From the NCBI RefSeq assembly GCF_036669915.1, contig NC_089314.1, positions 24,373,799 to 24,437,798 on the forward strand: DNA of 64,000 nt. The letters are read 5' to 3'. Under the pieces are notes generated by a model. That model was not told the origin of the DNA, made no database searches, and saw only the letters and a program-made list of their open reading frames with translations. Positions within the stretch are counted from its first letter, which is position 1, and every line of letters starts with the position of its first letter. Shown here piece after piece: positions 1 through 51,562 of the stretch. This stretch comes from Pocillopora verrucosa. Taxonomy: Eukaryota > Cnidaria > Anthozoa > Scleractinia > Pocilloporidae. Position numbers and translations under genes: made by a program.

Positions 1-138
1 ATTGAAGAAAATGGACATTTTTGCCTTTTAGTCGTGACTATTTTTTTTTCTTGTTGTTACTCTGTAAAAACTGAAAATGTTGCGCAACATATCGAACATA
101 ATTTTCTGATATTTAGTTTTTATAACGTCTATTGCCAG

Positions 139-1504
139 CTGTTTTTTGTTGTGACTTTAACGAAAAGAAGATAATCAGCGGGGGAGGTGACGGTTTGATA
201 AAGATCTGGGATGCTCAGACAGGAGATAATACATTCACTTTGGTTGGGCATACAGGGGAAGTGGTAAGCGATGAATCCATAGTTTGCTTATTGTATGAAA
301 TACGAAGAGACATAAGTTTTACACAATTATGCACGTTATTTTGGCCATCAAGCAAAACTGATATCCTTCAGTGAGGTAAATTCGCCTTAACGCCTTTTTT
401 AGGTGTTGGTTGGAGTTAGTGCGCGAAGTTTGATGCTGAACACATTACCATCTTTCTTAATCTGTTCAATAGCACTCTGTTTTCGTTTTGCTGATCGTCA
501 CATATGAACTTAGTAAAAACCCTAGATCACCATAGAGCTCCCTGTAGCTCAGTAGTCGAGCACCAGAGGGCGCAATGCAAGAACTGAGGTTCAGTTCCTC
601 ATATGGAAGTATTTGGCATGATTGTCCGTGTATTAATTTAAATGGCCAAAAAGCCAGCACATCTTTTGATTTCACGTGCACGAATTGAACACGTTCTCAA
701 ACTTTCTTGGCTACTTTATCCAGTACTGTTTACAGTTTAATGATGACATAATTGCGTCTGGTTCGGCGGACAGTACTGTGCGATTATGGAGTCATCGAGG
801 TAGGTGACTTTTTCATTTCTTGTGGTTACACCTTGTTTCTTGATGCACTCTAACTAGATTGTTATTTAACAGTCACTATGTTTGGCAGGTATCCTGCTTC
901 ACACACTGGAGGAGCATATCGGGGTGGTCAGGTGCCTGTGCCTCTCAGGTAATCGGCTCATTTCTGGTGGAGACCGGAAGCGCATCGCTCTTTGGGATAT
1001 GAAGGTATGCCGTAATGCTGTTTGAAGAAGTACTTCGTAATTTTAGCGTATGTATCATGAAACGTTTAACCTGTTATTTTTCAAGATTTTTTTTTTATCC
1101 TTATTAGTCTTCGCTATCCTCGGCATTCTATTCCCTACTGGCGTTGGCTTACCTTGCCAAAAGACTATATTAAAGCTTTTGTACAGCACATCTCCGTAAC
1201 CTTGAACTGGTATGGACTTAAAATGCCGTGCCTTAAATCGTTTAGGATTTTTTGTGTAAATGTAACTTTCTTACAGTCTTGACTGGATTCTATTTTCAAA
1301 TAAGCAAATGGAAAATATCTTCTCTAAGTTTTTATAAAACGGGAGACAAACGTTTTCTTTGTTCCCTTCCTATAGGAGGGCAAGCTGTTGAACGTGCTGC
1401 ATCGTAACCCAACATTGCTGCACCTTATGTGGGCTGATGAAACCAAGTTAGTCACTGCCTCTCCAGACACACCAGGAACTGTAACCATCATAAATTACTG
1501 GTAG
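139..1504 (+). CDS. WD40-repeat protein, C-terminal exons (5' part outside window)
   Basis: Four exons join in phase: 139-263, 724-799, 889-1004 and 1376-1504 (TAG stop). The translation holds successive WD40 blades with the hallmark endings LIKIWD, TVRLWS and RIALWD, each preceded by SGG/SGS turns (IISGGGDG, IIASGSADS, LISGGDRK), and ends in a last half-blade, VTIINYW. Such beta-propellers act as protein-interaction platforms. F-box/WD (substrate receptors of SCF ubiquitin ligases) is a common family with this tail layout, but no F-box is present here because the N-terminus lies upstream, so the exact family is left open. Donors are GTAAGC, GTAGGT and GTATGC; all acceptors are AG. A polyadenylation signal follows at 1969. 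Intron 1 carries a tRNA-like SINE head. Confidence 0.85.
545..599 (+). repeat. tRNA-derived SINE head (A box and B box)
   Basis: Inside intron 1 of the WD40 gene. TAGCTCAGTAG at 545-555 matches the RNA polymerase III A box and GGTTCAGTTCC at 589-599 matches the B box, with tRNA-like spacing (44 bp start to start). The cloverleaf is degenerate and the 3' side does not form an acceptor stem, so this is a SINE remnant rather than a working tRNA gene. Confidence 0.6.
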
Positions 1505-1968
1505 GGTTGTAACAAGTTACAAACCTGGCGTGCAGGTTGCGTGTGGATATGTGTACTTCGGCAATCGTGCAAGTCCTTCCTGAGAAATATAAGGGATCAT
1601 GTACCTTCTCTAGTGACTTGCAACAATTTCCCTTTTGCACACAAGTTTGGTGTGATATCGAAAACAAGAGTGAATTTAATCATTGATGGTGGCAAAGCAA
1701 GTCGAAAGTCGATCTTTCTTATGGCGTGAATGCAGAACCCTTGTGGCATGATGGACAAGCCAATAGTCAGTGTTCATCTATTGATGAAGGGTGACGAGTT
1801 ACCTGCGATACCATTTTTGTATTAAATGAACTCGGGCGAACAGTACCCTCCCGAGGAGATCAACGCCAGAGAGGAAGAGTGACGTTAGCACAGTTGTTTA
1901 GAATAGGGCGTACGAAGCACCGATATGAAACAAAGGTTGTATAGCTCAAAATTGGTATAAGCGTTGTA

Positions 1969-1974
1969 AATAAA
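1969..1974 (+). terminator. Polyadenylation signal of the WD40 gene
   Basis: Canonical AATAAA 465 bp after the stop codon of the WD40 gene, giving a 3' UTR of about 490 bp. No other AATAAA was noticed between the stop and this point. Confidence 0.6.
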
Positions 1975-2285
1975 ATTGGAAATTCCATGAAAAAATCTCT
2001 AATACTCGGGATATCTTATGTAATACCGATTAACGAAGGGATTATTAATGAAAAATGAGAGGTACTTCTCCTTCACACCACATACGCATATGTTCAAATT
2101 GGACAGTTACGTTAGCGGCAGGAATGCAGGATTTCATAAAAAAGGATGCAGTTGGTCATCAAGGTGATTCCGACGTTTCGACTGTATACCGCAAGTCTTC
2201 TTAAGGCAATGATGTTAACTGGATTCGTGAAACATTATGATCCTTCTCATTCAGTTGTGATTTGCTGGTCTCTGCAGCTGTGGTT

Positions 2286-3524
2286 GGTATCCAGTCACCT
2301 CGCCACCAAGCAGACTCGCCACCAGCGAACTCGCCACCAAGGAACGATCTCGCCACCAACGTACTCGCCACCAAGCGAAGTCTTCTCGCCACCAACCACC
2401 AATAAAGAGATTAGTCGAGGACAGTAGGATGTTCGGCTGATAAGTCTGTACTTAAACTTTATAAACGTATGTTGTCGAAAGCACGTTCGAAACCGATAAG
2501 TTTGTTCGCTTGTCTGTACTCAAACTTTATAAACGTATGTTGTCGAAAGCACGTTCGAAACCGATTCAATCTAAAATCTTCAAGCACTGGGAAGACTTTA
2601 ACGGCAACGAGATTTCTGCCCGCCGCCTTCTCAAACTCTGCAGTTACCTGAACGGCCCGGCGACCAGAACCTGAAGCAGAACCTGGAACATCAAAAAACG
2701 GCTCTTTTAGGAGCCACCGCGCCCTGGTTGCGTCTTTAGGACGTTTCCAGGTCGCTAAAAATGGCTCTTTTAGGAGCCGCCACATCTGCAAAAGTTATGA
2801 TCAACATATGAGCTGCTCTTCCAGATTTAATATTCAATAAAGTTTGTTGTTATTTTGCCGCGGGGAAACTGGGTAATATAATTCGACCGAATATTGAATA
2901 AGTTCCCTTGACAACATCACAGACGTCGAAATTTGCATACAGATAAGTAAACAAACTCTCGAGTCGATTCGTTCGAACTTATAACATCACAGACGTCGAA
3001 ATTTTCATACAAATAAGCAAACAAACTCAGGAATCGATGGGTTCGAACTGTTGACTCTCCTTGGGAAACAACTGTAGTTGCCTTAGGAAAGCTTCAGTCC
3101 ATCGACGCTTACAATTTCTCCCACCGACTTGACAATTTCTCGCATTTAGTTTTAATACAACTGCTATCGAGTTTCATTTCATCACTTATTTCTTCCCATG
3201 AAGTTTCATCAATTTCTCCTCGCTTACGTGCAAAAGACAAACACGATACGTTTCGATGTCAATGAGTTAGGAACGGAACACATCTAACACGTCGCTGAAG
3301 GTCATAATTTAAATACAGACAAGCGCACAAACGTATCGGCCGATTTGAATTGTGCTCGTTCGAACATCCTACTCTCTTCGACTACTTTATTCTAGTTTAT
3401 CTCTTTATTGGTGGTTGGTGGCGAGAAGACTTCGCTTGGTGGCGAGTACGTTGGTGGCGAGATCGTTCCATGGTGGCGAGTTCGCTGGTGGCGAGTCTGC
3501 TTGGTGGCGAGGTGACCGGTAACC
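2286..3524. mobile_element. Non-autonomous DNA transposon (1,239 bp) with long composite TIRs and 8-bp TSD
   Basis: The direct repeat CTGTGGTT flanks both ends exactly (2278-2285 and 3525-3532), an 8-bp target-site duplication. The ends are inverted: left GGTATCCAGTCACC (2286-2299), right GGTGACCGGTAACC (3511-3524), 11 of 14 matching. Each terminal inverted repeat continues about 120 bp inward and is made of six copies of an 8-11 bp subrepeat (CGCCACCA left, TGGTGGCG right) in matching irregular spacing. The interior has two direct repeat pairs (about 2447-2500 with 2508-2565, and 2909-2978 with 2982-3049) and two histone-like stem-loops, but no transposase. An 8-bp TSD is known for hAT, P and Merlin elements; the termini do not let me choose. 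It sits between the 3' ends of the WD40 gene and gene A. Confidence 0.85.
2700..2778 (+). other. Pair of histone-mRNA-type 3' stem-loops inside the transposon
   Basis: GGCTCTTTTAGGAGCC occurs at 2700-2715 and again, identical, at 2763-2778. It has the metazoan histone stem-loop form: 6-bp stem with two G-C pairs at the base, pyrimidine 5' arm, UUUA loop. The only departure is a closing U-G instead of U-A pair. The first copy also has the usual flanks, an A-rich stretch before it and ACC after it. Between them a third hairpin can form (CCTGG about 2723 with CCAGG about 2747, inner CGTC/GACG around TTTAG). No histone coding sequence is visible upstream. The structure is seen; a histone origin is inference. 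Confidence 0.5.
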
Positions 3525-3532
3525 CTGTGGTT

Positions 3533-3830
3533 AAGGCATTACGCAGAAAACCCTCAGTGGTTCGCAACTAACGTCGTCTTTTTAGATTTCTATTCTTTTA
3601 GGAATAAATTTCTATTCTATTGCCCCCCTATCCTCCTCCACCCTTCTTGGTTCTTTAAAATGCAAAAGATGAACTTGGCCATTATCCGGTTATCTTGACG
3701 TTTATTAATCATGTGACTGATTCAGAAGGTAATATAGCCTATCGTGATTATTGGTCATTGAGTTAGTGTCATTGAAATATTGCAAAACATTTTATAGCAA
3801 GGGAGATCGACCGAATATGTTGGTCTGATA
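3533..3830. other. Intergenic: 3' flank of gene A
   Basis: About 300 bp between the transposon and the gene A stop codon. Holds the probable polyadenylation signal of gene A at 3701-3706 and otherwise nothing recognisable. Confidence 0.6.
3701..3706 (-). terminator. Polyadenylation signal of gene A
   Basis: TTTATT on the + strand reads AATAAA on the - strand, 125 bp downstream of the gene A stop codon, a typical distance. Confidence 0.5.
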
Positions 3831-6482
3831 CTAGGGGTATCTAAATAACACGTATCCGTCACCGCTACTATGTGATACTCCACTACTTGACAGGGGTGCA
3901 CCATTGCCAGAGGATCCACCCCCTCCTGACCGTGAACCAAACGATGTGGCATACACTCCCCCTCCAGAATACCCACCTCCGCCTCCTCCAAAATCGTTAT
4001 ATGCCGCTCCACCTCCACCGAATCCCCCATTACCATCTCCTTTGCCCCCCACACCACCATTCAAATATGAGAACCCAGCCTCCTTGCATGATCGAGGAGA
4101 AACGCATGTTATATTGAAGGCGCATTTCCCGTCTCCTCTAAATCCACCACCTCCACCTGCATAGTTTAACTCGTCAGCACACACTTTCCCACCCAGGCCA
4201 TTGACTCCTCCGTAAACGCTTCCATTTGTTCCTTTTCGGCCATCATCGCCAACCTTTGATGTTATCTGACCCCCTCCACCACCCCCACCGCCAGCTGCCG
4301 CAAAAAGGGTATTATTACTGAAAACTACAAAAGTACCTCCACCCCCTCCTGCAGCGGAAGATCCTTTGAGACCTTTCTGACCAACTAAGAGGTGCAGGAC
4401 AGTACCCTTGAAAAGTCTCACAATTCCACTTACAATTGCACCATTCCCTCCTGGTCTATATCCCTTCCCCCCTGATGCCCCAGCCACAGTGAAACTATAC
4501 CGCGCGGTAAATGGAACCGTCCAGATCTGTATTCCTTTGTTGAGTGTTACTATCCCTTCTAGAGGCGTGCGTTTGTATCCAGCTGTTGATGTCGGCCCAT
4601 TGTTGCCTTGAGCACCGAGGAAAGTGAAATAAAAGGCTATTGCTGAAACAACAAGGAAGTCAAAGGAACAATGCATTAATGGATTAATAATCGATATTAA
4701 AAGATAACGTAATAAATTGGATTTTAAAAAAAAAAACTGTGTCAGCGTTATCATCTCAAGCTTAAATAGTGCTATTACCACCACTACTCCTAAATCAAAG
4801 CCTTCGAGTTTTCTACCATACAGTGTTGTGTACACCATCACTGAAATCTTGCAGAAAACAAGGGGAAAGGTCTTGTGCTTATGAAAATTGACAAATTTCT
4901 TTTCAGCCACAGAAAGAAAACAAAGCATTTGTGAGGGAATGTAGGAACTAATAATCACCTCGCTATGTCGAATGACAATGTTCTTTGAGGCTGGAGTTTT
5001 TATTGGGCGACAATTAAAGAAACGTTGCTGTTCTTTAAGAACATTAATTCGCTTTACCTCACTTTGTTACTAAATTGAAAGAGTAAAAATATTCAGGAAG
5101 CTTTCTTTAAACCCAATCTGAAAATGGAGCAGACGAAGGTGGACCTGTGACAACTCTGCAAGACTGATCTCATCCTAGGTTGTTAAAATGTTACCTTTAG
5201 ACTTTTCACAGTACATTCCAGTGTATGGCTTCTCACAGAGGCAAGCATATCGTCTGTTATCATGGTCATAGCTACATGTCTGACCATTTTGACATTTGCG
5301 TGAGCAAGGCGTCTGACAGGAAAGGTTACACACGTTACAAATCGTTTTTATTTTTTGAACACCGTCCACAACCTCGTGGAAGTGTTCTCATTAGTCTCTG
5401 TTATTTAATCAACGGAGCTGTTTTATTTCTCCTCTCTCGTCATTGCTCAGAAAATTGGTACTTCAGTACTTCTTTCAGCAAGTTGTTTTCTTTAAGTTTT
5501 ATGGCAGTTTTCAGAAATATATTTACGATGAGAGCTTCCTTGGAAATCAAAAACTTCATTTCTTTTATCGTTCGATCTCTTGACCACAATTAATGATTTA
5601 AGAAACAAAATAAATACCGCAATGGAAAAGTTATGCCTTAAATTCTTCTTTAACGACTTCAAATTCGACTTGATTATCACATCTTCCCCCGTTTTTAGTT
5701 AGATAGACGTTTGTCCGATACGCCAGCCAATTCAGTAATTCTTACTGCATTTGTACTTTACTCTGAAATTTGGGCCTTGAACTGCATGCTTTCAAAATTC
5801 GACTTGAATTGATTATCAAACCCTCTTCGGTTTTTTGGTCGGGTGAATGTTTATTCCAATGGGCCAATTCACTGATCCTTACAGCATGTTTGTTTTGCCC
5901 AAACTGTTATTTATTTCCACTGTAAATAATCAATGTCCAGAGAATCATTGAGAATTCGTCATTTGTTGGAGACAAATGGAAACGGTAAATGAATAGTTTC
6001 AATTGAAAATAATTCCGCATTACTTGCTCCTTGTTTTTTTTGTTTTTCTGTTTTTTTTAAATGAATACTAAAAATTACTTTATTACAAATGTAATGCAAA
6101 ATGTACTTACGTGAAAATCTATGTATTGTTGGTAAGTACATCCATCGCTTTTCACGAAGGCATCTTCAGCCAGCCCGTCTTTGATTCCTCTTCGATGCAG
6201 ATAGCATGTTCCCTTGAGTTTCTGCCACGGCTCGCGGCAGTACGTTTGTGCGATGCAGTCACTTTCAGACAAACAGGCGAGGCCACAGTGAACTTCCCCC
6301 GATGTTTTCACTGTTCTTAAGATGTCCCTTTTAAATGCAAAGTCACGCCGGAGTAAAACTGCTCCATCAAAGTATAAGCTATCACTCAGACGTTTCCAGT
6401 GCAATGACTGTAGCGATTCTCCTAGAACAACTAAGGCACATGTGGATGTGAACACATGAATCAACGCAGCTCTCTCAGCCAT
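3831..6482 (-). CDS. Gene A: secreted PAN-like / EGF / ALK-type glycine-rich protein
   Basis: Three exons in phase: 6482-6111, 5312-5195 and 4642-3831, giving 433 aa. Exon 1 (residues 1-124) starts with a hydrophobic signal peptide and continues as a Cys-containing PAN/apple-like domain (CLSESDC, GTCYLH). Exon 2 (about 125-163) is one EGF domain (CSRKCQNGQTC ... CLCEKPYTGMYC). Exon 3 (164-433) is the glycine-rich domain of ALK/LTK receptors: the entry GIQIWTVP and AGASGGKG, then LHLLVGQKG, AGGGGGTFVV, long Gly runs and GGGYSGG. In ALK this domain binds the ligand; here there is no transmembrane segment or kinase and the chain ends shortly after the domain at YVLFRYP. The product is therefore probably extracellular, as matrix component, adhesion protein or ligand-binding decoy (inference). 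Donors GTAAGT and GTAAC; intron phases 0 and 1 are shared with genes B and C. Confidence 0.85.
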
Positions 6483-7252
6483 CTTCTCGATCTAAATTGT
6501 GTTCCTATATTTACTCAATACTTCAGGCGTAAATTTTTCATTTTAAGTAATACTTTATTCGTTGCACATTTATGTTTTTTGTGATATATTTAACTTATTC
6601 TAAATGCAAGACATCTTGGCGGAAGTTTTCCGTCTTTGTTGAGTTTTCTACGTATCGAATTGACAGATTTGATAGGTTTTTTCTTGTAAATGTAAACAAA
6701 TTGAAATTATTTCAAGATCTGTTCCTTCTGAGATCCCATTTGTTTAGTTTTGGGTTCTCTCCTTATATAATTGACGTTTTTTGTTCGTTATATTTTTGTA
6801 CATGCAGAGAAAAATAAAGTTACTCTAAGATCTGTTGCTTTTGTGATAAAGATGAGTGTTTGCGCTACATTTTTTCCAGCGATTTTGGAGTGGGTAACTG
6901 TATTGTGCAACATAAGACTGAATCAACTAATTGTTTTAACGCATCAAGGAGCGTGATAAGAAATCCATTACATCAAAACTGTCGGCTGGTCCTCACTTTC
7001 CCTTACAACTTGTCTTCTTCTTTTTCAACTCTATTATTGAGCTTATGCAGACCAATAAAAGGTGTGAGAGTATGTCCCCCCCCCCCCCCCCTTCAGCTAC
7101 TTGGCCTGCGATAACAGAGCTAATTTATATCGGGTCACATAGTTTCTTTTTGGTTCGCTACAGTTAATATGCCCTCTTCTGCTCATTCGCACAAACAAAA
7201 AAAACTATAAAACATCCTTTTGATTTGAAGAACAGAATTTTAAACTCTGTTG

Positions 7253-7558
7253 TTAGTGCATGAACGCCACCTTGCAATTGGCCAGTGAGCATCGATACGT
7301 AACATTTGTTTTTGTGGTATTACCGCCAAAAGTTCCACCTGTCTTCTGAACTGGAGATTCGCGCCATAAGTTGTAGATGGACCGACTGCTTGCCCCATAA
7401 AATTCATCATGCCCATACATGCGGCTGGTAGAGCTCTCTTTCAGATCTATCAATCCTGAAATAGCGCCCTGACACAAATAATTTTCCACTAACGCGTTGG
7501 TAACATATAGCAATGGAATACAAAGACTTAAAAGAAGAGAGATCAACGAATCAATCAT
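7253..7558 (-). CDS. Unassigned ORF with signal peptide, starting 7 bp after the gene B stop
   Basis: An ATG-initiated 101-codon ORF. Residues 1-22 (MIDSLISLLLSLCIPLLYVT) look like a signal peptide. The next stretch, ENYLCQGAI, weakly recalls EQRYMQGAI at the same place in gene C exon 1, but the rest shows no PAN cysteine pattern and no EGF or glycine-rich exon follows on this strand before gene A. It lies in what should be the 3' UTR of gene B. It may be the first exon of a decayed cluster member, a separate small secreted protein, or chance. I do not recognise it. Confidence 0.3.
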   Translation of the reverse strand: MIDSLISLLLSLCIPLLYVTNALVENYLCQGAISGLIDLKESSTSRMYGHDEFYGASSRSIYNLWRESPVQKTGGTFGGNTTKTNVTYRCSLANCKVAFMH

Positions 7559-7565
7559 TGTTTTC

Positions 7566-10484
7566 TTAATTTAAACTGTTATTGAAATCTATCAATACGT
7601 ATCCGTCGCCAGAGTTGGTTTCATTGCTTGACTTCAACCACCCTACGGGCCAGTAAGATCCACCCCCTCCTGCCCGTGAACCCCAAGACGTGGCATGCAC
7701 TCCCCCTCCAGAATAACCCCCTCCGCCTCCGCCAAAATCTTTGTATGCCGCCCCACCCCCGCCGAATCCTCCAACACCATTCCCATCGCCACCCAGACCA
7801 CCATTTACATAGGCCAACCCGGACTCGTTGCATGGATGAGGAGTTAAGGAACATGACACATTGCGGCTACATCTGCCATTTTCCTGAAATCCAGCTCCTC
7901 CCCCTGCATTGTTGTCCTCTCTAGCGCACACTGATCCACCCAAACCATTTACACCACCATAAACGCTGCCAGCTTTGGTCGCTTGACCATCATCTCCGTC
8001 TTCTGAGATAATATGACCACCTCCACCGCCACCACCGCCTGCTGCTACCAAAAGCGTGTTTTTGTTAGAAACTACGAAAGTTCCCCCACCTCCTCCTGCA
8101 CCAGAACTTCCTGGAAGTCCTTTCTGACCAATCAAAAGGTGCAGTACAGTTCCCTTCGTTAGCGGTAACACTCCTGCTACGATTGCACCCTTTCCCCCTG
8201 AGGATGACGCGTTCCCTCCTGAAGCTCCAGCGACTTTGAGCCTATAAAGAGCAGTGAATGGCACTCTCCAGATCTGGACCCCTTTGTCGAGTGTTACCGT
8301 TCCCTGTAGTGACGTGTTCACATATTCAGCAGTCGATATTGGCCCAGAGTTACCTTGTGCACCAAGAGTGGTGAAACGAAAGGATATGGCTGGAATAAAA
8401 CCAAAGTAAATCTCACTTCCTGTTATAGTGCACAATAAATTGGATTCCCTTTATCTCGATCCCATTTGGACGACGAGTGAATTGGAGAGACAAAGTTTTA
8501 GTTATAAAGGGCATCATTATAGAGATGCCTAATGGTTCTTCGTCTGCGACCCTTTATTTTTTTTTTAAATGTTGAGTTTTGGTTTTTGTGAATAAACTAA
8601 GTGGAGCGCGGATGAGAACACTCATCACACTCAATCCACAACTTCGGGAATTGAACCCAGACCCCAGCTGTGATGGGCGAGCGCCTCCACAACTGCTGCC
8701 TCCCCAAAGCAAATCCCATTAGGACATAAATCAAATTATTTTTCATCCCATAGGTACAGCTTGCAACTACTTTTTGATGAGGATGAGGTGAACCTGGTAT
8801 TGTTCGAAGCTACTGGTTTCTTGATTTACACAATTTTGCGTTAAGAAAAAGTGTTGCAGCTCTTGAAATGCTTAATGTAATGCGCTGAGGATTCTACCTT
8901 GAAGCTGGTTGCAATCAATTCCTGTGTAGGGCGGCTCACATCTGCGTTGGCATTTTCTGGTATCATAGTCGTACTGACACTTCATACCATTTTGACATTT
9001 TCTTGAGCAAAAGACCTCCTGCAAGATTCATAACACCCTAATCTCGAACAGTTGCTTTTGATTAAAGGCAGTATCAGCAGTAAACCCATAAAGTTATTTC
9101 ATATTGGGCCAGTCTTGTATGTTTTACAGCCAGCTCGATATTTTTTTAGTATGGATCTTGCCTGACTAATCTACTTTACTCTGTGTTTTTATGCACGTCA
9201 TAACCTTGTTTGTATGTTTGGCCGTTTATATTTCCGTTGTGTAGCAATATTTGACCTTAATTTTGTAACCTTCTGATTTCTTTGATGTCTTGTTACAACT
9301 ACTAGTAGAAACAAAGTGTTTACTGCAAACTACAACACCCCGCCTCAGAGAATCTACCCTTTTCTTTTTTTTCACATTCCCTGGAATCCGATCCTTCATG
9401 CAATCAATGCTCGTTCAAGGCCTTATATACGACTCGAAGAAGTAAGATAAATTACGCTCTCGATGGCAACAATTCATTTACTTGTTTTCATTCATAGCCT
9501 CAGATAAGCTGACGATTGTTTTTTTTTTTTTGCGGTTGAAAACATGTGTTAGGCACCTATGATGATTAAAGCCAATATTTGCATGCAGTTTAAGCGCTAA
9601 AAACACAATGTTTGTCTAAGATCCGATTGTAATCTTGTACATAAATCAATACTGCTAGACACTGCCTTGCCTGTCATTTACCTCCCTTTATATAATTTTT
9701 CCTTGCGATAAAATTTCACTAAAGCATGGCAGGGCACAATTAAACGCGAAGGTTTTCCCTACTTAGTTGCTTTCGGTTTTTTTGCGGTTATGAAAATGAA
9801 CATTGAGGAGAGAAAGTTCATCACTTTGAATAAATACAATGAATTCTAAGTTAGCAAACATATTTTGATTTGAGCCCTGCGCTCAGAATGCTTTTTTCCG
9901 ACTAAAAGTAAATTCTAAGACACTTAATTAATACTAAGATCCTGAATAAAAAAATTGTGAAATCCTTTGAATTGTAAAGTTTCTCATCAAAGATACCTAA
10001 TTTGATGTGGTTGTTAGTACATCTTTATCGCTACCAGAAGATATGAAACATTTAGAAGAGAATTTATCTATATTTTCGTCAACAGAAAACTAAATATTTG
10101 TTGACTTACGTCTAAATCCATGTATTGCTGAAAGGTGCATCTCTTGCTTTTTACGAGACGGGCACTGTTCTCTTCGTGCTTAACGCCGTTTTTATGTAAA
10201 TAGCATGTTCCTTTGGGATTTTTTCTCCTTGGCGAATCGTCGCAGTACGTTTGTGCGACACAGTCGTTTTCAGACAAACAAACAAACGCACATTGAATCT
10301 CCCCGAAAGTTTTCACTTTTCTTAAAATGTCCGTTTTCAGTGCAAAGTTTTGACGGCAGAAGAGAGCACCATTAAAGGATAAATTGTTCTGTCCTCTTTT
10401 CCAGGCTGAACATTGTGGCAAGTGAAGCAAATATCCGAAGACAATGAAATATGATACCAAGGCCATAATAGCTTTGACGAACAT
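7566..10484 (-). CDS. Gene B: secreted PAN-like / EGF / ALK-type glycine-rich protein
   Basis: Three exons in phase: 10484-10110, 9018-8898 and 8389-7566, giving 439 aa. Exon 1 encodes a signal peptide (YFIVFGYLLHLPQCSA) and a PAN/apple-like domain close to that of gene A (GALFCRQNFALKTDILRK, CLSENDCVAQTYC). Exon 2 is one EGF (CSRKCQNGMKCQY ... CEPPYTGIDC). Exon 3 is the ALK/LTK glycine-rich domain (GVQIWRVPFTALY, LHLLIGQKGLPGSSG, AAGGGGGGGGH, GGVNGLGGSVC, DGYVLI). No transmembrane segment or kinase follows. It lies in tandem with gene A on the same strand, has the same phases (0, then 1), and is its closest relative in the window, so the two look like a local duplication. Its 5' end faces gene C across 1.1 kb. 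Confidence 0.85.
8615..8712 (-). repeat. tRNA-derived SINE head, reverse orientation
   Basis: In intron 2 of gene B. On the - strand GGTTCAATTCC (8657-8647) is a good B box, and the region around 8700-8676 resembles a diverged A box followed by GGCGCTCGCC. The sequence is anticodon-arm-less and has no acceptor stem pairing, so SINE remnant is preferred to a tRNA gene. Confidence 0.4.
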
Positions 10485-11569
10485 GATTGAAGAGTGCTTT
10501 GCAAATTTAACCTAGGGATCTTGCATACATCCTGCTGAATTCTCCTCGGTGAAACACTTTATCCTTGATTTGAACTTAATAATGTTTACTTTGTTTCAAT
10601 GTATCATTATACTTTAAGGTAAATGGAAGACAGAATTTCGACGTTCTATCGGAACGTTTTGATCTTGTTGATACTTCTCCTTGGCAACTGTCAGATAATC
10701 GGCAGACGATTTTGATTTATTAAAATATAAATGAAACTAAATAAGTTTTCTTAAAATGGTGCAATTTTTTTATTAAATTGTAATTTAAATGTTGACACGA
10801 TCTTACTTTTTAAATTGACTTTTGGACATGTGCATTGCTAAAAGGTGCATCTCTAAAGACATCTTTGGGTGCGCAGTGTTTTTCCGGCATTATTATAATC
10901 ATTATTTATTATTATTGTCGTAACTATTATTATTGTCGTAACTATTATTAGTATCTTTATTTTTTATTTTCCAGTTTTTTGAGCTATCATCGTAATTCTT
11001 TTATTCTGAATTGATAAATTAACTCCCAAAAATTGCGATAAAAGTAAAACAGTCAATTTAAAAGATTAGGGAATTTTTTTTAACAGGAGTATTAATTTAA
11101 CAGTGGAAATTGAAAAATTAAGAAAAAAAACGCTGAAATTACTACTCAATAATAATAATAAGTTATTATTTTAATCATAATTGTTATTATTACCATTATT
11201 ACTACTGAAATCGGCGATTGTAAAAATAGACGGGATACAGAGTTGATGACCAGAGTTTGAAACAGTTATTTTAGTCTGACCTAATGACACGTCACTAGTT
11301 ACTTAAAGCAAAGGTTAATGTGTTTTGTTCGACCACAGCTTTTAAGCTTCCCTTTTATTGTTTACTGTATCTGGCACTTCCATTGTTGTATCGAAGAGAA
11401 GTTTTAACGTCAGTGGAAAGCATAATTATCAGTGTTTGCTCAAAAAGCAACTGATTTCATAGACAATATACGCAAGTGGCCATTACAACACCTTGTGCCT
11501 TAAGAGAAACGATCAGTCTTAACTATAATGAGTTTTCTCTTAGTTATATGATATTGAGTGGTCTTCGAG
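10485..11569. promoter_or_regulatory. Shared 5' region of divergent genes B and C
   Basis: 1,085 bp between the start codons of B (-) and C (+). It is AT-rich, with TTATTATT/TTATTGTCG microsatellite-like stretches at about 10890-10955 and 11140-11200. It must contain the 5' UTRs and promoters of both genes. I could not identify a TATA box or specific factor sites with confidence. Confidence 0.45.
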
Positions 11570-13509
11570 ATGAATTCACCTGTTTTTCTGTGGGTTCCTG
11601 TTACTGCACTTCATATTTTTGGAATTTCTTGCAGCTTCGAACAACGCTACATGCAGGGTGCAATTAAAACAATTTTGGATCACAGGCTTAATGGCCACCA
11701 GATTAGGACTCTAAACGGTTCTACGTCATTGTCTTGCGCTCATTCGTGCTTGATGGAGACCAGATGCGTGTCCACGAACTTTGGAATTTCCTCAGCGGAG
11801 AATAAGCTCTTGTGTGAGTTAAATGACCACGGCGGTGATTCCTTAATTTCTGGCGATGAATTGATATACGCGGAAGGATTTACATATTCTGCCTACTCTC
11901 CAGTGTTTCAAAGTAGTATCAACGTTATGGTGGGTGACAAAGTTCTTCTTTTACATGTTTACTGTAATATCTTGAGATTTCAGTTTCTGTTGGTTAATTA
12001 ATTTTTAGATGATATTCGTCTCTTAAACTGTTTTTCCTGTGTGCCCCATTTCCATATCTCATTCCTCTCGAAATATTTTTCTGATTTTGTTCATTTCCAT
12101 ATCTCACTTATAAAAAACGAGAACCTTTTGCTGCCAAATGTCAATCATGACCATTACCAAATTTCTGAGGAGCTTTGAAATGTAATACTGAGCTATTGTA
12201 AGTAGATATAAGCTCCGAGTTAGTACATTGTTACAGATGCGACTCTATGTGAAGTCCAGTAGCTTTGTTTACCTTCATTTATTTTTCCGACGATTTTACC
12301 ATTGATTCAGGACGAATGCAACCAGATGGTCTGTCTCAATGAAGGCCTCTGCAATTACAACAACGACAAACAAAAATATCGGTGCAAATGCAAACTTCCG
12401 TGGTTTGGGGACATGTGCGAAAAGAAGATAGGTAGGTAACATTGTTATAAAGCCCAATGTATCGCGACATGAAAGTTTATTTCATTTGATACTATCAGAG
12501 TATTCACGGTGTGCGTGTACCGATATGCTCCATATGCTTAATGCTTTTTTATTTCATAGTCAAATAAATTAATGCATGTAAAAGGTGGAATGAAGTTTTC
12601 ATTTTTTGCACGTCTAAAGTGTATAGACAGAACTTTTCGTTTCCTATCTGAGCAAAGGTTTTCCTTGTTGTGTTGTTAGATATCGAATATCATTTCACTA
12701 CACTGGGTGCAACGGGTACGTCTGGGCCAGTAAATAACGCGCTGTACCAGGGTACATCACTGGAGGGGATTTTAGTGAAAGACGGTTTGCAATCATGGGA
12801 CATTCCTTTGTCGGCCACGTATTACCTCGAGTTATGCGGAGCTACAGGTGGGAATCACGAGGGATTTAATACCACCGGTGGTAAAGGAGCGAAACTAAAT
12901 GGGACGGTCCATCTTCAACAGGGAATACAGCTGACAATTTTAGTAGGGCAGCGAGGCAAACGGGGTGGAGGTGGCGGAGGAGGAACTTTTGTTGTTTTGG
13001 CAGGCAATGGCAGTCCATTGGCTGTGTCTGGCGGGGGTGGCGCAGCTGACTTGGTAGATGGTGATCCTGGACAGGCCGGGTTGAGTGGTAGCGTCAATCC
13101 TGGGGGAAAAGGAAAGGGAGGGAAGGTCTGCATGTCGGGGAATGATGCAGACTTACGTGGTGTTGGAGGTGGTGGAGGTCTTCTCACGGATGGGCGCTGC
13201 TATAGGGCGTCCAGTTGTAACAAACCATGTGACCAGAAAGATGGAGGCAAATCTTTTCAAACAGGAGGAAGGGGTGGATACAGCAAAATAAACAAGTGCA
13301 CAGGAGGATTCGGTGGCGGGGGAAATTGTGGAGGAGGGGGTGGATACTCTGGTGGTGGGGTGCAAGTCGATGGCAAGAGTAAGAACCTTGATCTTCATGC
13401 CGGAGGAGGCGGGTCTTTTATCCCGCCTGATGCTAACTGGACGGCGGTGTCTGGAGGATGTCCTTACGGCGACGGTTATGTTTTGTTTAAAATTGTAGCA
13501 ATCGATTGA
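11570..13509 (+). CDS. Gene C: secreted PAN / EGF / ALK-type glycine-rich protein, with a phase break
   Basis: Exons 11570-11929, 12311-12432 and 12680-13509. Exon 1: signal peptide MNSPVFLWVPVTALHIFGIS and a PAN/apple domain (LNGHQIRTL, CAHSCLMETRCVSTNFG, LLCELND). Exon 2: EGF (CNQMVCLNEGLC, then CKCKLPWFGDMC). Exon 3: ALK/LTK glycine-rich domain (FTTLGATGTSGP, LQSWDIPLS, ILVGQRGKRGGGGGGG, GGGYSGGGV, DGYVLFKI). Exon 2 ends in phase 2 at its GTAGGT donor, whereas the glycine-rich exon needs phase 1 (as in A and B); the three exons total 1,312 nt, one more than a multiple of 3. An A5 run sits right after the last EGF cysteine. Either a one-base indel (real or sequencing) or an unseen micro-exon explains this. 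C is more diverged than A and B and is transcribed away from B. Confidence 0.75.
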
Positions 13510-16500
13510 TTATATGATTTGGAAGAACATGGATTTTAACATTAGTGGATTTAGAGTGAAGTTGTTAAATGTAACTTACAGGCGATGGTCCATGAGAAGT
13601 CTAATACAAGTTTTCATTATTGCAAAAACTCTTCTAAAGAACTGAGATTTGAAAGTGAGTCCCGCATGTCTTCAATTAAGGCTTTGTGGCAACAGTGGAT
13701 ATTTCAGTGTCCTCTCGAGCACAGGGCATGCTTGCAAACGCATTTTTGGTACCTGTTTGCTTAGTGTAGGATTTCATTCACGTACAGCGAATTTAAGGGT
13801 GCCCCGCGGAAAATTATTCATGATTTCACTATTTCTCCCCCAAATTAAAATAGACAGAACGTGATGCAATGAGAGTGGGTAGCGTCATACAAGCGTATCA
13901 TGACGAAATGCGACATGACATTTTTCCTGATTTTTTTTCCTTTTAGATAGGTTAGCTCATTGATTAATTTGGACGATAAAACCTATGGAAGAAAATTTTT
14001 TTCTTTCCTGTCCTTCCTGACCCTGGTGGTTTGACTCCGTGATGAAAAGTTTCGTCTTAGCTGAGTGCACTGATGCATTCAGCGTTGAGCACAATTTCGC
14101 TGACTCATTAGAAGGATGCGTTTTCACATTTCGTAATCAAAACCGTCAAATTAATTGAACAAAAACAAGCAAACAGGTTGCCTCTCAAAAACAAGCTTTT
14201 TCCGACCTCACAATATCAGTAATGAGTTTTTTGAAGAGTCTCGGTCATTAACCGTCGAAAAGTATGAATTGTCAGTTAGTTTTGATGTTTGTTTGTACTC
14301 TTACTAAGTAGTAACAAAAGTAGCAAAAGCTCAAGTACTTTTTGTGTTCCATGTACACGAAACAGTCGAGCGCACTTTGGTTCTTGACTTCAAGCTTGGT
14401 TTCTGGCCTCGCATCATCAATCAGTGATAAAGTTAATTAAAAATGATTTATCGGTCGCTATGTTTTTTTTTTTACTCAAGCTGAATACATTATTCGGTCT
14501 TTTAAAAACTGAAGAACTTTAGAAACATATATCTATTGAAATGGAACACGTTGAAACAAAAACTACAACACTGAGCTGTTACACCATTAGATCTTTAAAA
14601 AAAAGTGCCGGTTGATTTGCATTTTAACCTTGTCAAAGTCAGTGAAGTGAAATTTCCTCTTAACACTTATTTTCACTGATGTAAATTGTGTGGGACTGGT
14701 TTTCGGAAAACATTAACTTTTTTTAGATAAATGCAACTTGGCTCAATCAGTTTGTGAAAATGAGGGTGAATTGATTGTAAGTAAAATGTATTTCGTGGCC
14801 GTAAAGAATCTCTAACGCCTACTCAGTGATTGCATCAATGACAAAACAAATCGACCGTAAAGGAGTTAGTTCTTGACCCCCATCTCCCGCACAAACACAG
14901 TGTTACTCGTGGGTTTCATCATGATATCACGCTGTAACTGAACAAAGAAAACTCTTTGCACTTCCTTGAATTCCTAAGGCTTTACGTTTTTCGTTAAGCT
15001 GTATATGTAAAATCGAGTTCGAATGAATATTTATCACAGCCTTATTTTATGTTGCGTAAGCTTTTGATTCTCTTCTTTTATAATCGAATTGAATATATCT
15101 GCTATATATGCATCGTAGTAGCATTCACTGAATACATTCAATTATTGATAAATTGCAAACAGTTTGATTTAGCGTTTTCTTTTTCGGCGTCATATCCAAA
15201 CACATCCTATCGTGCACGTGATTTAGAGCACAACTACCCGGCAAGGTCAGCTTTTCTGTTCTACGTAACAGGAAAATGCTCAGCATTGAAGTCAACTATT
15301 TCGTGTCTCTTGGCCGACACAATATGATAAGGCTGAGTACAATTTTGTCAGCATAACAGAAATTACAAGAAACAATTATGATCACGGGAATCTTGGAGCG
15401 ATTTTATGACTAGGCTTTCGGAGATAAACGACTTACAGTTTCAGGCCACTGGTCCATGGCTAATTAAAAAAAGAGACTGCCCATAAACGAGACTCAAGTG
15501 TGACGTTAGCGTTCTCTTGGACTTTAAGATTTTATTGCACAGTTAATTGTACAAAGATTAAAAGGGGCTTTACAGCGAATAATAAACATTACATTGATGA
15601 ACCCCTCGCGCGGATTTGAACTCGTGGCATGATCCATCAACTTCGTCAATAAGAAATAGCAGGGTGCCAGTAAACAGCAGACAAATAACAAGAACTTTTT
15701 TCTGTAAACTTCTATCTCTTGTTTAAAATAAGGTTTAAACTGTGCGTTGATTGATTTAGAATTGATAGATAATACAAGTTTCCGTGAGTTTTTATTGCGT
15801 GAGTTCAGCCGAACTAAAAACAATTGAGTGCGTTTATTTTTTTACGCACGTAATTACAAAGATGTAATTTACGCACATAATTACAAAGATGTTGCGCTTC
15901 GTTGATTCTTAGCAGAACTGTCACGATGTTGGCCAGTCTGTCTTTTTTAAAAAATAAAATTTCCATAGCTTTTTTCCATTTACTCGGCGAAGTAATGAAA
16001 CTTTGGCCATCAGATTTGATATGCATTAATATAGTATCTGGCTTTGCCTAATCGACCCAGCCTGAGGCATCACGACCAATGTTGATGCTAAATAACCAAT
16101 CAAAGATGCATGAAAAGATTCGAAAGAGAAGCGAAAAAATAAGCTGTAATTTAGCTCTATTAATAGTCAGTCTTTCCAGTTAGACATCTTTCTGAATAAT
16201 TGACAAACTAGAAGGTTCGGCCGGACATATAAACGGAGTCTTGCAAAATTGGAATAACTAAGTGAAAATACGTCTCGTAAAACTGCTCAATTGGAACATA
16301 CCGGTAACAACAGTTTCAAACTTCTAGGCTTGAGGCCATAACGGCTGCTTAAAATGCTGGACTATGTTTTGCCCAGTGGCCATCAATATACCAGCTTGGT
16401 TCGAAAACACAACATCCCTTTCAAATCCTTTAATATTTGCCGATCATTTTAAAGACAATGTTTTCTGCATAATAGGCGAAGGTAATGACATTCGCCTCTC

Positions 16501-20100: not shown

Positions 20101-23100
20101 CTTAAACAAATGCTAAATTTTCGAAAAAAAACCAAACAAAAGAGAAAAGAGACAAGTACCAAAGTCGTGTAATTTGTGTGGTGCTGTGCCAAGCCGAGTG
20201 AAAATTCGAATCCATCACAAGGTGCATTGACGCGCTGTTATTTATCCTAATTACCTTATTTTACTTTCCCTATTAGTTCAGCCGAAACGTCTATTAAATT
20301 CAACTCTTTACACAGTGGCGACTACAATATGCCTTTTAACTTATTATATGCTTCTGCCGTATCCGCAATTTCGATATTCTTAACTTCATAGCCTTCCTGA
20401 CGTTGATCGCTATACTTTAACTTCAGATTCTGCTACAACAACAACGATCGCACAGAGCCCAACCACAACGAGTGAAGGTAAATAAACAAAAATTAATATT
20501 GTTTACTTTCTGAATCATTAAAACTTTATTTATGCAAATTTTCTGAAGACAAGCAAGACAGCTTAGGATATTCGATGGTTTTTTTGACCTCCGAAGCTAA
20601 CCTCATGGCTGCCTAAGTTACCCGAAATCATCAGAAAAGCTCTTCTGCTCTTGTTCAGCTAATAATTAAATTTCAGCGTAACCCCATGCTACATACGAAA
20701 ATTTTCCCCGAGCCTTAGTCTTTGAACTATTTTTGCAATCAGACTTTTTTATCATCAAGGAGGGGAAAAATTTTTTATTAGTATTAGTAGAATAATCTCA
20801 AATACGCCTGCACTTCCATTAACTTAAACAAATGCTAAATTTTCGAAAAAAACCAAACAAAAGAGACAAGTATCAAAGTCGTGTAATTGTGTGGTGGTTG
20901 TGTCAAGCGGAGTGAAAATTCGGATCCATCACAAGGTGCATTGACGCGCTGTTATTTATCTTAAATACCTTAGTTTTACTTTCTCCATTAGTTCAGCCGA
21001 CAAATCTCTTAAACTTTTACTCAATACACATTGGCAACTACAATATGCCTTTTGACTTATTACATGTGTCTGCCGTGTCCGAAATTTCGACATTCTTAAC
21101 TTTATAGCCTTCATGACGTTGATCTCTATACTTTAACTTCAGATTCTGCTACAACAGCCTCGGTCACACCGAGCCCAGCCGTAACGAGTGGAGTTGGAGA
21201 AACCACCACTGCAGCAGTTACACCCACAGTTGCAGGAGAAACAACTACTAGTACAACTGGTGGAGGGGTAAGTGCCACCACAGAGAGTGGAGAAGTAGTT
21301 ACCACTTCAGCAGCTGGAGGAGGAGTAACTACCACTTCAGCAGCTGGAGGAGGAGGAGTAACTACCACTTCAGCAGCTGGAGGAGGAGGAGTAACTACCA
21401 CTTCAGTAGGAGGAGGAGTAACTACCACTTCAGTAGGAGGAGGAGTAACTACTTCGGCAGTATCCAGCGGCGATGTGACTAATACAGGAGTGGTCGTGGG
21501 AGTAGTAACTACAACTAGAAATGTAGCAGGAGAAGCTACAGCCACTACAGTAGCCGGAGGAGAGGCAACTACCTCGGCAGTGGTCGGAAGTGAAGTTACC
21601 AGTTCAGCAGTAACCGGAGGAGATGTAACTACCACTGGAGCAGCCGGAGGAGCAGTAACCAACACTGCAGCAATGAGTGTTATTGCAGCTACTACGACAG
21701 GAATTGGAGGAGGGGTAACAGCCTCAACAGTTGTAGGAGGTGGGGCAACAATCTCAGCAGTTGGAACAAGTGAGGCAGCAACCTCAGCAGTTGGAGGAGG
21801 AGAAACTACATCGGCAGTAGATGGAAGAGAAGTATCTCCGATAAGCACGCAAACAGCACCACCTACAACCAGTGTTTATGTGGACAAAAGACCAGGCGAG
21901 TGAAACAATCAGATTCTTGGGGAACCGTTGTGACTAAGGGTGGGAAATTGTAATTAAAAGTCGATCATCAAGGTTAAGTTGACGGCGTCACTTACCTAGG
22001 CGCCATGACGGATTTTTCAAAAGCTACCATCGGATTTTACAAACAGATTTTGGCGGTTTACTATTAGAATAATTATTTGGGGGAAATTAAGCTGTTTTTA
22101 AGATGCCTCGTTTCATCAGAATTGAGCTGACGCTCTGATTCCAATAATTTAATTACCCTTAACGTTAGAAGTCGTTGAAGGAAGATCAACTTAATTTATC
22201 CCAAATTATATCGAGAGCTGAATTTAATTTTATGCCCCAGAGTTTCGCGCCGGCAAAAACGAAGAATACGGTAGCTATTAATTTCCATCATTCCAGATCT
22301 GAAGAAATGTTACCCCAATCCTGCAAGAAAACACAATCTAAAAGAAACTGAGTCAACACAATGACGTTATCATGCTTACCAAACGAGTATGAATACTAAA
22401 GTGAGCCTTTCTTTTATTCAGGTGCATCAGTATCACTGAGCCTGAAAATCACAATTGATTGTTCTGGCGCCATCTCGGTCACTTTAAACGCGACCATAAT
22501 AACTGCTGTAAGTAGAGAGCTTGGTTACTTTTATAAGAAAGGATTTATCGTCATGTCGTGGCAGCTCTTATCCGAAACGACACTTAAATATGCCTCAATA
22601 TGCCTTTTTAATAGACAATAAGAAATAGCAGGTAAGTTAGTGTTAACAACTGAGTTGAAAACGTAAATTGGCCACCATAAAGGGTAAAAAAGCTACGGTG
22701 GCCAATTTACGCTTTCAAGTCAGTTTTTAACACTAAATTACCTCTATACTCTCCCACCGACGCAGTACGACAGTTTCTTTAGAAATTTACCCCCTTTATC
22801 AATAAGAAATATACATGAGTTCTCGATGAAGACACGTTTCTCGTGTCCCCTTGCGCGCGAGGTGTTTCTGTTCTGGTTATTCTGATTTGCCATAAAGATA
22901 AATCTTTTAAGATTTTATTGTCGCGAAATGTATGGGTGGTATACCTTTTCAATAGTCATTAAAAAGGTGTGGGATTTGTGGCTCAACCATGATAAACATG
23001 GCATAAGCTGATCGTCAATTGCCTGTATGAATCGCTGACTATGTATCTAAATGCGAACATTTCCCATAAAGCCGTTGGTTTCGTTACTTTTTAGGTGAGA

Positions 23101-47760: not shown

Positions 47761-48180
47761 CAGCTGAACATTTTCTATTTTTCCTGAAAATTAAAAAGGG
47801 ATTCAGTAAGGAATAAAGAGACGTCAGTCTCCGAAATAATTCAACAAAAGTCATTTGTTAATCAAATATTTATCTTATTTTCAAGCAAAACACCTGTTTG
47901 TGAAAGAATATGGAATATGGGTGGGTGTTAATTGAAGCTTTGGAGAGGTTTTATTTTGGGGCTTTTAAAGATTATGTGAAGGACGTTGCCCCTAGGGAAA
48001 CATTGCCTGTAAGGAAACACTTCTTAAGTGCAAACGAATTAGTTCATGTGTCATATGTTAATTTTCTCTTTTCAAGTTTGTTTGTGAATGACAGTTAGGT
48101 TTTTTTTAAATGTTATCTCATTGAGGATTGTAGTTATTTCCCTTTAAGCGTGGTGATCAGTTGACTTGCAATCTGAAATC

Positions 48181-51100
48181 ATGGCGGCTCCTACGACATC
48201 TCTACACGAAGAACTGTTGTCCCGATCGATTTCCTCCACTGCTGGAGAATCATTCCTGTACGCGTTCATTGTATCTGTAGGCACTGTTGGTAACTTTGCA
48301 GTTCTTCTGGTCTTGTACAAAAATCATCGTCTCCGGAACATTCCCGCGTATTTTGTTGTTTCCTTGGCGATATCTGATATCATAATGCTGGATTTGTGCG
48401 CGCCATTTTCAATAGCAGTACTTATGACTGGCGACTGGTTATTTGGAGACCTACTCTGCCAGATTCAAGGTTTCATCGTCATGTTGGTCGCCTGTGCTTC
48501 GTTAGGAACACTTGCTCTAGTTGCGATAAACAGGTAAGAATAAATTCAGTTTTAATTCAATGAATTCAATTTTTGATAAATGAAGTAGAGATTTGGAAAG
48601 AAAGATCTGTTTTGATGAAGAGTGCCAACCTTTGTTTTCAATATTTGTTTGACTTTTTTTATCTTAGCTCTAGTGAATATTTTTTCCAGGCGTATTTTGG
48701 CATTCGTTTATCAACGGCACGCAAGCGCCATTCGCTGATAGAATGGGTAAGGGGAATTGTAATTGCGCTGCATGTATTGTAATGACGAGGACGAGAAACG
48801 GTGTTGTAAAGCAAAGCTACAATCAGGGTAAATTCAAGTTTTCTCCCTTGAGCAAGAGGAAACATTATTTAAAATTACTTATTAGACAAAAGACCAAACC
48901 TAAAATTTAATGTTAGTTTCCGCACCACAATCGATGGCCAATCAGACTCGTGCAGCTCAGTTCCTTGTAGATCATATAAACCAAGATTATCATTCGGCTT
49001 AATTTTGTAAGTATCAACGCTCTATAAGGTCAACTTAACCCGTCGCCTCACTATTCCCTTTTTGTTCGCCGTTGTCTTCTGCGTCCCCCTCTTTTATTGC
49101 ACAGATGCAAAATAATTTGTTTCCTCTCAGTTTATTGAACGAAACTAGAAACAAAATATAGCGCAAGGTAGGATCTGCAAATCGTTTTCAGGAAAAACTC
49201 TTATTAAGCTGTGCCGATGCAGGGTTAAAAAAGAAGAAAAAAATGAATGTCGTTAACAATGATGGCCCTTGTGCTATGTGGCATTGACAATAGTCCTTCC
49301 CGCTGTTAGGATCAGTTGAGTCAAAAGTGTCGTGAGTGCGAATGGATGAAAAATAAATTCAATTTGCTATTTCCAAGGTTGTTAAATGGAAAAGGGAAAC
49401 CTTCCATGCACGATTCCTTTATTACTGGTTTCCTTTGTAAACACTTTATTGGCAAATACAGTGTCATTACATTTATTCGGAACACCCTGTCTTGACAGTT
49501 GGATTCACCCCAATTATTACTTTTTCCTCTTTCAAGAAGACATTTTTTAAACAAAAAAATGGCGTTATCTTTAAAGTGAGGTTATTTAAACCACGGAAGT
49601 CCTATTCACAGAGTTGCAATTCGTTTTATTCAAATATTTTGATTCTGATCCATTTTTTTTCTTTTCGGTGTACCAAACCGGGAAAATTATTATTTGCACT
49701 TGTTTCCCCAAGTCAAGATAAAAATAAGTAAATAAAAAAACTTTGGAACAACATGCGACACGCTTAAATTTCTGGCGAATTATTAATCGTTGCATTCTCA
49801 TTTCATCCGTACTTTTTTAGTGTCATGATGATGATCTATGGTAAAATGTTGGAAGATTCAATTCCATTTGAGTATTTTTTTCCGTTGTCAAAGAAATGCA
49901 ATAACAAAATTCATTAGATGAATAAATTTTTTTTGAACCAAAAAGTAAATACCTCAAATTGGTGTCAGGCTACCAGCCTAATTGAATTGTTACTTGTAAG
50001 TTAAGCGAATTGTATGAGCAGAATTTGAAACAATTTGCTCTAACTTTAAGATGCCGTTTTTTTTCTTAAGGAATTTTTCGGTCACATTTGATTTGACTTG
50101 CATGAGTTGTTTATGCTGAAATTAGGTCGAAAAACCGACCGTCTTAAAATTGACTAAAATGTATAACAACTCACAAATCTGACGGAAAAATCGGTAGCGT
50201 AGTTACTGTGGTTCTTCTTAAATATTTTAGGGACACTTAATCGAACTCATCAAAAAAAGCTTTCATTGCAAGTCACGTTTAACTGAAAATAGTTTTGCAT
50301 CTAGTCGGGGTGGACAGGATAGGGATTCTAAGAGAAAATTACTCCAAAGAATTTCCTTTTATTCCTTGCGTTGAAAGGCGCAGAGCCGATGAAAGAGCGG
50401 GAAAGCACGAGCACTGGGTTCTATTGGTTGGAAAGAAGGCACCGGCCTGCGTTTGCTAAGCTAAATCATCATGTAACTCCTTGAAATTCAATCTATGGTT
50501 CCTCCTCCAGTTTAGAGACGAAACCAGAGATTTCTTGTCAACTCCTTTCCTTGACTCGAGCAGTTTACATTGCGCCTAATATCAGGGAGTTGACGGAATT
50601 AAAATTTTTAATGTCTGCTGATTTTTGGAGGATGCTATATACAACCAGAAATACACAATGTCCAATAAGTATTACAATTTAGAATTGCACTTTATTCATC
50701 TGGATAGAAATAAAATGAATGACTAAACCTCTACCACACTTGATTAGAAGTGATTTGCCGAAACAGATTCATATTTACTGACACCATTTTCCAAAAAGGG
50801 TCCATCTACTGATACCTTTTGGTTTTGTTTCTCAGATATTTTCATATTGTCAAAACCTCACAGTACAGAGTTATCTTCACTCCAAGGAACGCAGTCCTCA
50901 TCATACTCGGTGGATGGGCATCTGCCTTTATCACACCTTTGACTTACACTGCGGCTGGTAAAGATTACGTATTCCAACCTGGAAAGTTCTTTTGTTTCAT
51001 GGAATCGAAGTTCACTTTGCTCGTGCTACCCTTTTACGGTTTTATTGCCATCTCAATGTTAATTCTCATCGTATGCTACCTGAGTGTGTTCAAAGCGTTG

Positions 51101-51562
51101 AAAGCCCATGAGAAAAACGTTTCAAACAATCTTCGGAAAGGAAACACCCGCCAAATAGTAATTTCGTTGGAAGATATCAGGGTCACCAAGATTTTATTTG
51201 CTACTGTGGTAGGCTTCGTCCTGTGCTGGACACCAGTACTGGTGATTGACATTGTCGATGCATTTCTTGGGTCGGAATGGGAGCTAACCCGTGGGACCTA
51301 TTACATGTATACCATATTTGGTATTACAAGTTCCGCCATTAACCCTATAATTTATGGAGTCATGAATCCTTCCTACAGGAAAGCTTATTGCCGGTTATTC
51401 GGATGCCGCCGAGTAGGTCGCGTCGGAGATGTGCCAACTACCCAGGGACCGGAGCTGACGAAACATGAATTGATCCCGCCAGCAAACGACGATTCGTCAA
51501 AGACTTATTCACAGCAGATCCCACGGTCTGTACACCAGGTTCCTTTTTCTGATCAAGAGTGA
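48181..51562 (+). CDS. Rhodopsin-class GPCR, melatonin-receptor-like
   Basis: Two exons, 48181-48533 and 50836-51562, give 359 aa with seven membrane segments. Class A marks: G37-N38 in TM1, LAISD (62-66) in TM2, Cys93 and Cys171 for the TM3-ECL2 disulfide, N117-R118-Y119 (NRY instead of DRY, as in melatonin receptors), CWTP (248-251) in TM6 and NPIIY (287-291) in TM7. LRNIPAYFVVSLAISD and IIYGVMNPSYRKAY resemble melatonin-receptor TM2 and helix 8. The TM7 lysine needed for retinal in opsins is Ile here, so it is not an opsin. The intron is phase 2 and cuts the Arg codon of NRY. The start is the ATG at 48181 with A at -3. Ligand unknown; the family couples to G proteins at the plasma membrane. 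It is convergent with the acyltransferase gene. Confidence 0.88.

Follow-up and report, generated by a model that had tools for sequence, protein, structure and literature searches.

Three neighbouring genes on chromosome 3 of this anthozoan encode proteins that, judged from profile matches and a predicted fold, end in an ALK-type glycine-rich (TG) domain and carry no kinase. The genes, termed A, B and C, occupy positions 3831-13509 (from the stop codon of gene A to that of gene C) of the window, the 64,000 nt stretch of DNA that was analysed (C3:24373799-24437798). The ligand-binding domain of ALK is usually described as part of a receptor. Here the domain is used without a kinase in a large, partly tandem family, of which A, B and C appear as the chromosome-3 members. 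In the literature searched, which was judged from listings and left most subscription papers outside, there was no recognisable description of such a use or of kinase-free ALK-type domains in cnidarians, and no ALK-type domain appears in the accessible parts of six papers (PMC12549020, PMC13044578, PMC10236652, PMC12314368, PMC11876637 and PMC7853314).

Gene models and shared exon plan

The products of all three models begin with a hydrophobic N-terminus and a PAN/apple module (exon 1), continue with an EGF-like module (exon 2) and close with the glycine-rich domain, after which exon 3 ends in a stop codon. Gene A (433 aa) lies on the minus strand with exons at 6482-6111, 5312-5195 and 4642-3831, and gene B (439 aa) lies on the same strand with exons at 10484-10110, 9018-8898 and 8389-7566. 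Gene C (436 aa) is encoded on the plus strand by exons at 11570-11929, 12311-12431 and 12680-13509, and is arranged head-to-head with gene B at a distance of 1.1 kb. Every intron has GT-AG borders, and the phases are 0 and 1 throughout (exon 2 of gene A, for example, is entered in phase 0 and left in phase 1). The initial annotation had described a common exon plan with these phases in three neighbouring genes, and the three models agree with it.

Identical residues number 254 of 428 aligned positions between A and B, 162 of 409 between A and C, and 160 of 411 between B and C, a range of 39-59%. By this measure the three genes are old and diverged. Comparison of A with B gives dN/dS values of 0.35 for exon 1, 0.71 for exon 2 and 0.29 for exon 3, which suggests that exons 1 and 3 are constrained and the EGF exon less so. 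As far as the sequences can tell, the reading frames of A, B and C are more than chance.

Two further features adjoin these genes. Directly past the stop codon of gene B is a 105-codon open frame (7256-7570, minus strand) whose translation opens with a hydrophobic segment past the third codon and has no Pfam match. Near gene A, opposite-strand open frames at 2251-2451 (minus) and 3308-3571 (plus) contain a nearly identical stretch (WWREDFAWWRVRWWRDRS...), which thus forms an inverted repeat beside the gene.

The terminal domain resembles the TG domain of ALK

The glycine-rich domain in exon 3 comprises 269-275 residues, and the exon 3 products contain 27-29% glycine. Scored as single sequences against PF12810 (curated cut-off 24.5 bits), gene B exceeds the threshold with 30.2 bits, gene C falls just under it with 23.9 bits, and gene A is well under it with 14.1 bits. 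The profile search that the initial annotation had proposed as a check thus gives a match over the cut-off for B, whereas C and A, taken singly, score under it. The domain of gene A is 66% identical to that of gene B, and the exon 3 products of A and C are rows of the family profile. When an eight-row profile of the domain was compared with PDB sequences, it retrieved only ALK, LTK and SCD-2 (nine of the nine matches listed at E up to 0.01), and the match with ALK is colinear and spans the whole length of the domain.

The predicted structure of the domain of gene B, the only one modelled, adopts the TG fold seen in ALK, a TNF-like jelly-roll with a glycine-rich layer. The model was built from eight sequences and has a mean pLDDT of 73 (54-73 among five models), with weak polyglycine loops. 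Profile and predicted fold together agree with the earlier assignment of an ALK-type glycine-rich domain, and individual residues of the domain are conserved across the family alignment. The colinear match with ALK and the predicted fold rule out a plain glycine-rich repeat or an artefact of composition.

In each gene the stop codon of exon 3 ends the protein after this domain, as the initial annotation had stated. Hydropathy analysis of A, B and C revealed no hydrophobic stretch C-terminal to the TG domain. Windows with values of 1.67 (A) and 1.75 (B) fall inside the domain, on strands of the modelled fold.

PAN and EGF-like modules precede the TG domain

The best PAN scores are 19.5 bits for A (PAN_4), 17.2 bits for B and 15.3 bits for C (PAN_1), all under the Pfam cut-offs. 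A ten-row profile of the family, in contrast to these single sequences, matches the apple domains of factor XI, kallikrein and microneme proteins, and the predicted fold of exon 1 of gene B is an apple fold in agreement with the profile. The PAN-like module that had been proposed for these genes is supported on both counts. Factor XI, plasma kallikrein and microneme lectins are the known PAN/apple proteins most like these; here a single PAN module stands ahead of EGF-like and TG modules. The extreme N-terminus is hydrophobic by hydropathy in A, B and C, and forms a helix in the model of B.

Evidence for the EGF-like module differs among the genes. Exon 2 of A (15.6 bits, E 0.02) and exon 2 of C (15.0 bits, E 0.03) match the Pfam EGF profile weakly and under its cut-off, and both contain the six-cysteine EGF pattern. 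Neither a Pfam match nor this pattern was found in exon 2 of B, which is homologous to exon 2 of A (57% identity over 35 aa) and appears to be a degenerate EGF-like module. The EGF assignment of the initial annotation thus agrees with the cysteine pattern of A and C, though at scores under the cut-off, and in B with neither pattern nor score.

The family extends across the genome

The searched genome comprises 353,415,432 bases in 52 contigs. A search with the PF12810 profile found 94 places (all 115 candidates scored), and the domain of gene B used as query found 138 (141 of 158 candidates scored), which rules out a purely local novelty. The figure of 138 is not a count of genes, whose number is lower because several places are exon pieces or hold stops. 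The three best places are the window genes and the next nine are near-full-length domains on C2; C8, C5, C4 and C10 account for most of the remainder, in the form of half-domain exons, and C11, C12 and C14 have one place each. Together with six places from the PF12810 search, the resulting 144 places fall into 25 groups under a 150 kb rule, the largest of which hold 30 places on C5 (25.43-25.85 Mb, 420 kb) and 17 on C8 (0.55-0.79 Mb, 240 kb).

In a tree of single-exon domains, A, B and C lie on one side of a branch that separates them from nine C2 sequences with support of 100/97, where one C2 row (L032) is a truncated frame and the match of another (L028) holds a stop. In a larger tree that also includes chromosome-5 rows and human ALK, A, B and C group with support of only 58/87. 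The tree favours expansion by local duplication, as had been suggested for the cluster. A diverged TG domain copy lies some 300 kb ahead of the window (C3:24069853-24070674, minus strand); its match contains one TAG and four TAA codons, and from its sequence it is probably a pseudogene of the chromosome-3 island.

Paralogues that were read elsewhere also carry PAN ahead of the domain and a stop behind it. Of seven PAN stretches scanned in paralogues, six exceed the PAN_1 cut-off and that of L016 falls under it. Additional modules include fn2 in L009 (4.9e-13) and, in the array locus L022, PAN_1, a SUEL lectin (7.6e-23), EGF repeats and a COLFI match just under its cut-off; L003 and L008 have exons that resemble F5/8C, identified solely by visual inspection. 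On C12, locus L018 reads by eye as PAN (phase 0), EGF (phase 1) and TG up to a stop codon, and an additional intron interrupts its TG domain. The exon plan is therefore not confined to the chromosome-3 island.

Substitution patterns were compared in a set of 14 rows, three of which repeat the same place and in which L042 and L043 have no row. Over the first half of the domain, six C8 places (L001, L003, L004, L007, L008 and L039) give dN/dS values of 0.25-0.37, with no sign of diversifying selection among them. Pairs with L006 reach about 0.6. The C4 pair L002/L005 (27.42 and 27.50 Mb) shows eight nonsynonymous and no synonymous changes in 165 codons, which for one pair is possibly chance. Some C8 copies are very close (dS 0.009 for L003/L008).

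Kinases, ALK ligands and the architecture of ALK

Kinase places in the genome were listed by PF07714, with at least 151 matches (136 of 2016 candidates scored), and by the ALK kinase domain, with at least 142 matches (141 of 573 candidates scored). Among 69 kinase places picked by hand, the nearest to any of the 144 TG domain places is 372 kb away; because both tables are lower bounds, a kinase absent from them is possible. A scan of loci L001-L023 and the window for the kinase HRD motif gave no match. For A, B and C, a receptor with an overlooked downstream kinase exon is ruled out by the stop codon in exon 3. Judged by eye, the best matches to the ALK kinase domain are an SH2-kinase of Src type (L045) and a kinase that looks FGFR/RET-like (L044). 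An ALK orthologue with no TG domain nearby may exist among the pieces of multi-exon kinases (e.g. C5:12.85-12.96 Mb). An ALKAL profile found nothing over the cut-off in the genome (best E 5.4).

The proteins differ from ALK in several respects. In ALK, LTK and SCD-2 the TG domain is followed by a membrane span and a kinase, and A, B and C, with their exon 3 stop, have neither. The EGF-like module precedes the TG domain in A, B and C but follows it in ALK, as in the TG-EGFL constructs described in the accessible part of the ALK review PMC10605310. Ahead of the TG domain stands PAN in the three proteins, in place of the MAM/LDLa modules of ALK. In the alignment, the stretch from GQ-G to the next glycine run measures 36 residues in ALK, about 2-12 in eight family members and about two dozen in two chromosome-5 rows. 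We take the 36-residue insert of ALK to be its three-helix-bundle-like part. Near the end of the domain, where ALK has the Glu of its GHGE motif, presumably an ALKAL contact, the three window genes have Tyr and five C2 rows have Lys.

Viral and phage relatives of the domain

All eight family members match two phage protein families of unknown function, phrog_22713 (best 1.5e-33) and phrog_7388 (best 2.3e-20). Among viral structure models, 119 match the domain at E up to 0.001; the 50 of these that were listed include nine named 'receptor protein-tyrosine kinase' and 12 named 'glycine-rich domain-containing protein'. A fold search with the domain of B found the same TG-type fold in phage fibre and tail-tip chains. 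Phage and giant-virus glycine-rich proteins match the fold more weakly than ALK does. A tblastn search of phage records with the domain of B and the low-complexity filter on gave no match. Since viral proteins share the domain, it is not specific to receptors. The kinase names in the viral set are likely an annotation artefact of the TG domain, and automatic labels of this kind may rest on that domain alone.

Proposed function and origin

These architectural features suggest that A, B and C are probably secreted, kinase-free recognition or adhesion proteins. The PAN module would attach to a glycan or protein on mucus, matrix or a microbial surface, the EGF-like module would hold the two ends apart as a spacer, and specific binding would, by analogy with ALK, fall to the head formed by the TG jelly-roll and its polyglycine layer. 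The proteins would then act extracellularly as soluble or matrix-bound binders, and be neither receptors nor binders of ALKAL.

Three other readings can be set against this one. If the proteins were structural components of matrix or mucus (skeletal organic matrix, mesoglea or glue), the glycine part would be mechanical, PAN and EGF would aid assembly and no specific ligand would be needed, an arrangement that fits the glycine content, the putatively secreted modular architecture, and the fn2 and sub-cut-off COLFI matches among paralogues. We consider it rather unlikely, for the glycines build a specific ALK-like fold and not repeats, and conservation of the domain extends to single residues. 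Slightly better placed, though still doubtful, is a variable repertoire for immune, symbiont or self-recognition that grows by tandem duplication, which would be a special case of the recognition proteins favoured here. Consistent with it are the many places and their dense groups on C5 and C8, the near-identical C8 copies, the stops in some places and the SUEL lectin in the array locus. The low dN/dS in the six C8 places, however, indicates no fast change (pairs with L006 are higher, and the one C4 pair points in the opposite direction), and A, B and C are themselves old and far apart in sequence.

The initial annotation had suggested that the proteins could be a soluble ligand-binding or matrix system made from a receptor ectodomain. 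In the same direction lies a role as soluble decoys or co-ligands in ALK signalling, derived from an ALK-type receptor. That the fold is that of the ALK ligand-binding domain agrees with such a role, which we nonetheless regard as very improbable. Both the role and the derivation are opposed by the lack of any checked kinase place (69) within 370 kb of the 144 domain places, the EGF-like module on the other side of the TG domain, the missing ALK insert and the absence of an ALKAL match over the cut-off. The derivation is further opposed by the presence of the domain at 138 places and in viral proteins, and the decoy role by the non-acidic residue in place of the GHGE Glu. In the accessible part of PMC10605310, Aug homologues are described as unknown outside vertebrates, which also argues against a decoy.

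The release of a receptor ectodomain is one direction of two that evolution could have taken. As a tentative and rather speculative alternative, the TG domain may be an old extracellular binding head common to phage and giant-virus proteins, which in this anthozoan forms a large secreted repertoire with PAN, lectin and other binding modules. The ALK/LTK kinases would then be late recruits of a soluble head, and the arrays would constitute a recognition system of the animal. The number of places and their distance from the checked kinases make the origin of the ALK ligand-binding domain testable, and structural and binding studies could draw on the stand-alone TG domains of the family.

Other features

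No Rfam family was matched in positions 1-16000 of the window. A 267-codon open frame at 21100-21903 (plus strand) encodes mucin-like repeats rich in Thr, Val and Gly, and the stretch 48157-51562 (plus strand) contains two exons of a GPCR of the rhodopsin family (7tm_1, E 4.7e-18 and 3.8e-24). Elsewhere in the genome, 74 matches to GFP-family exons, which make a reef-coral kind of anthozoan the likely source, form two clusters on C1, at 0.67-0.88 Mb and 28.36-28.79 Mb.
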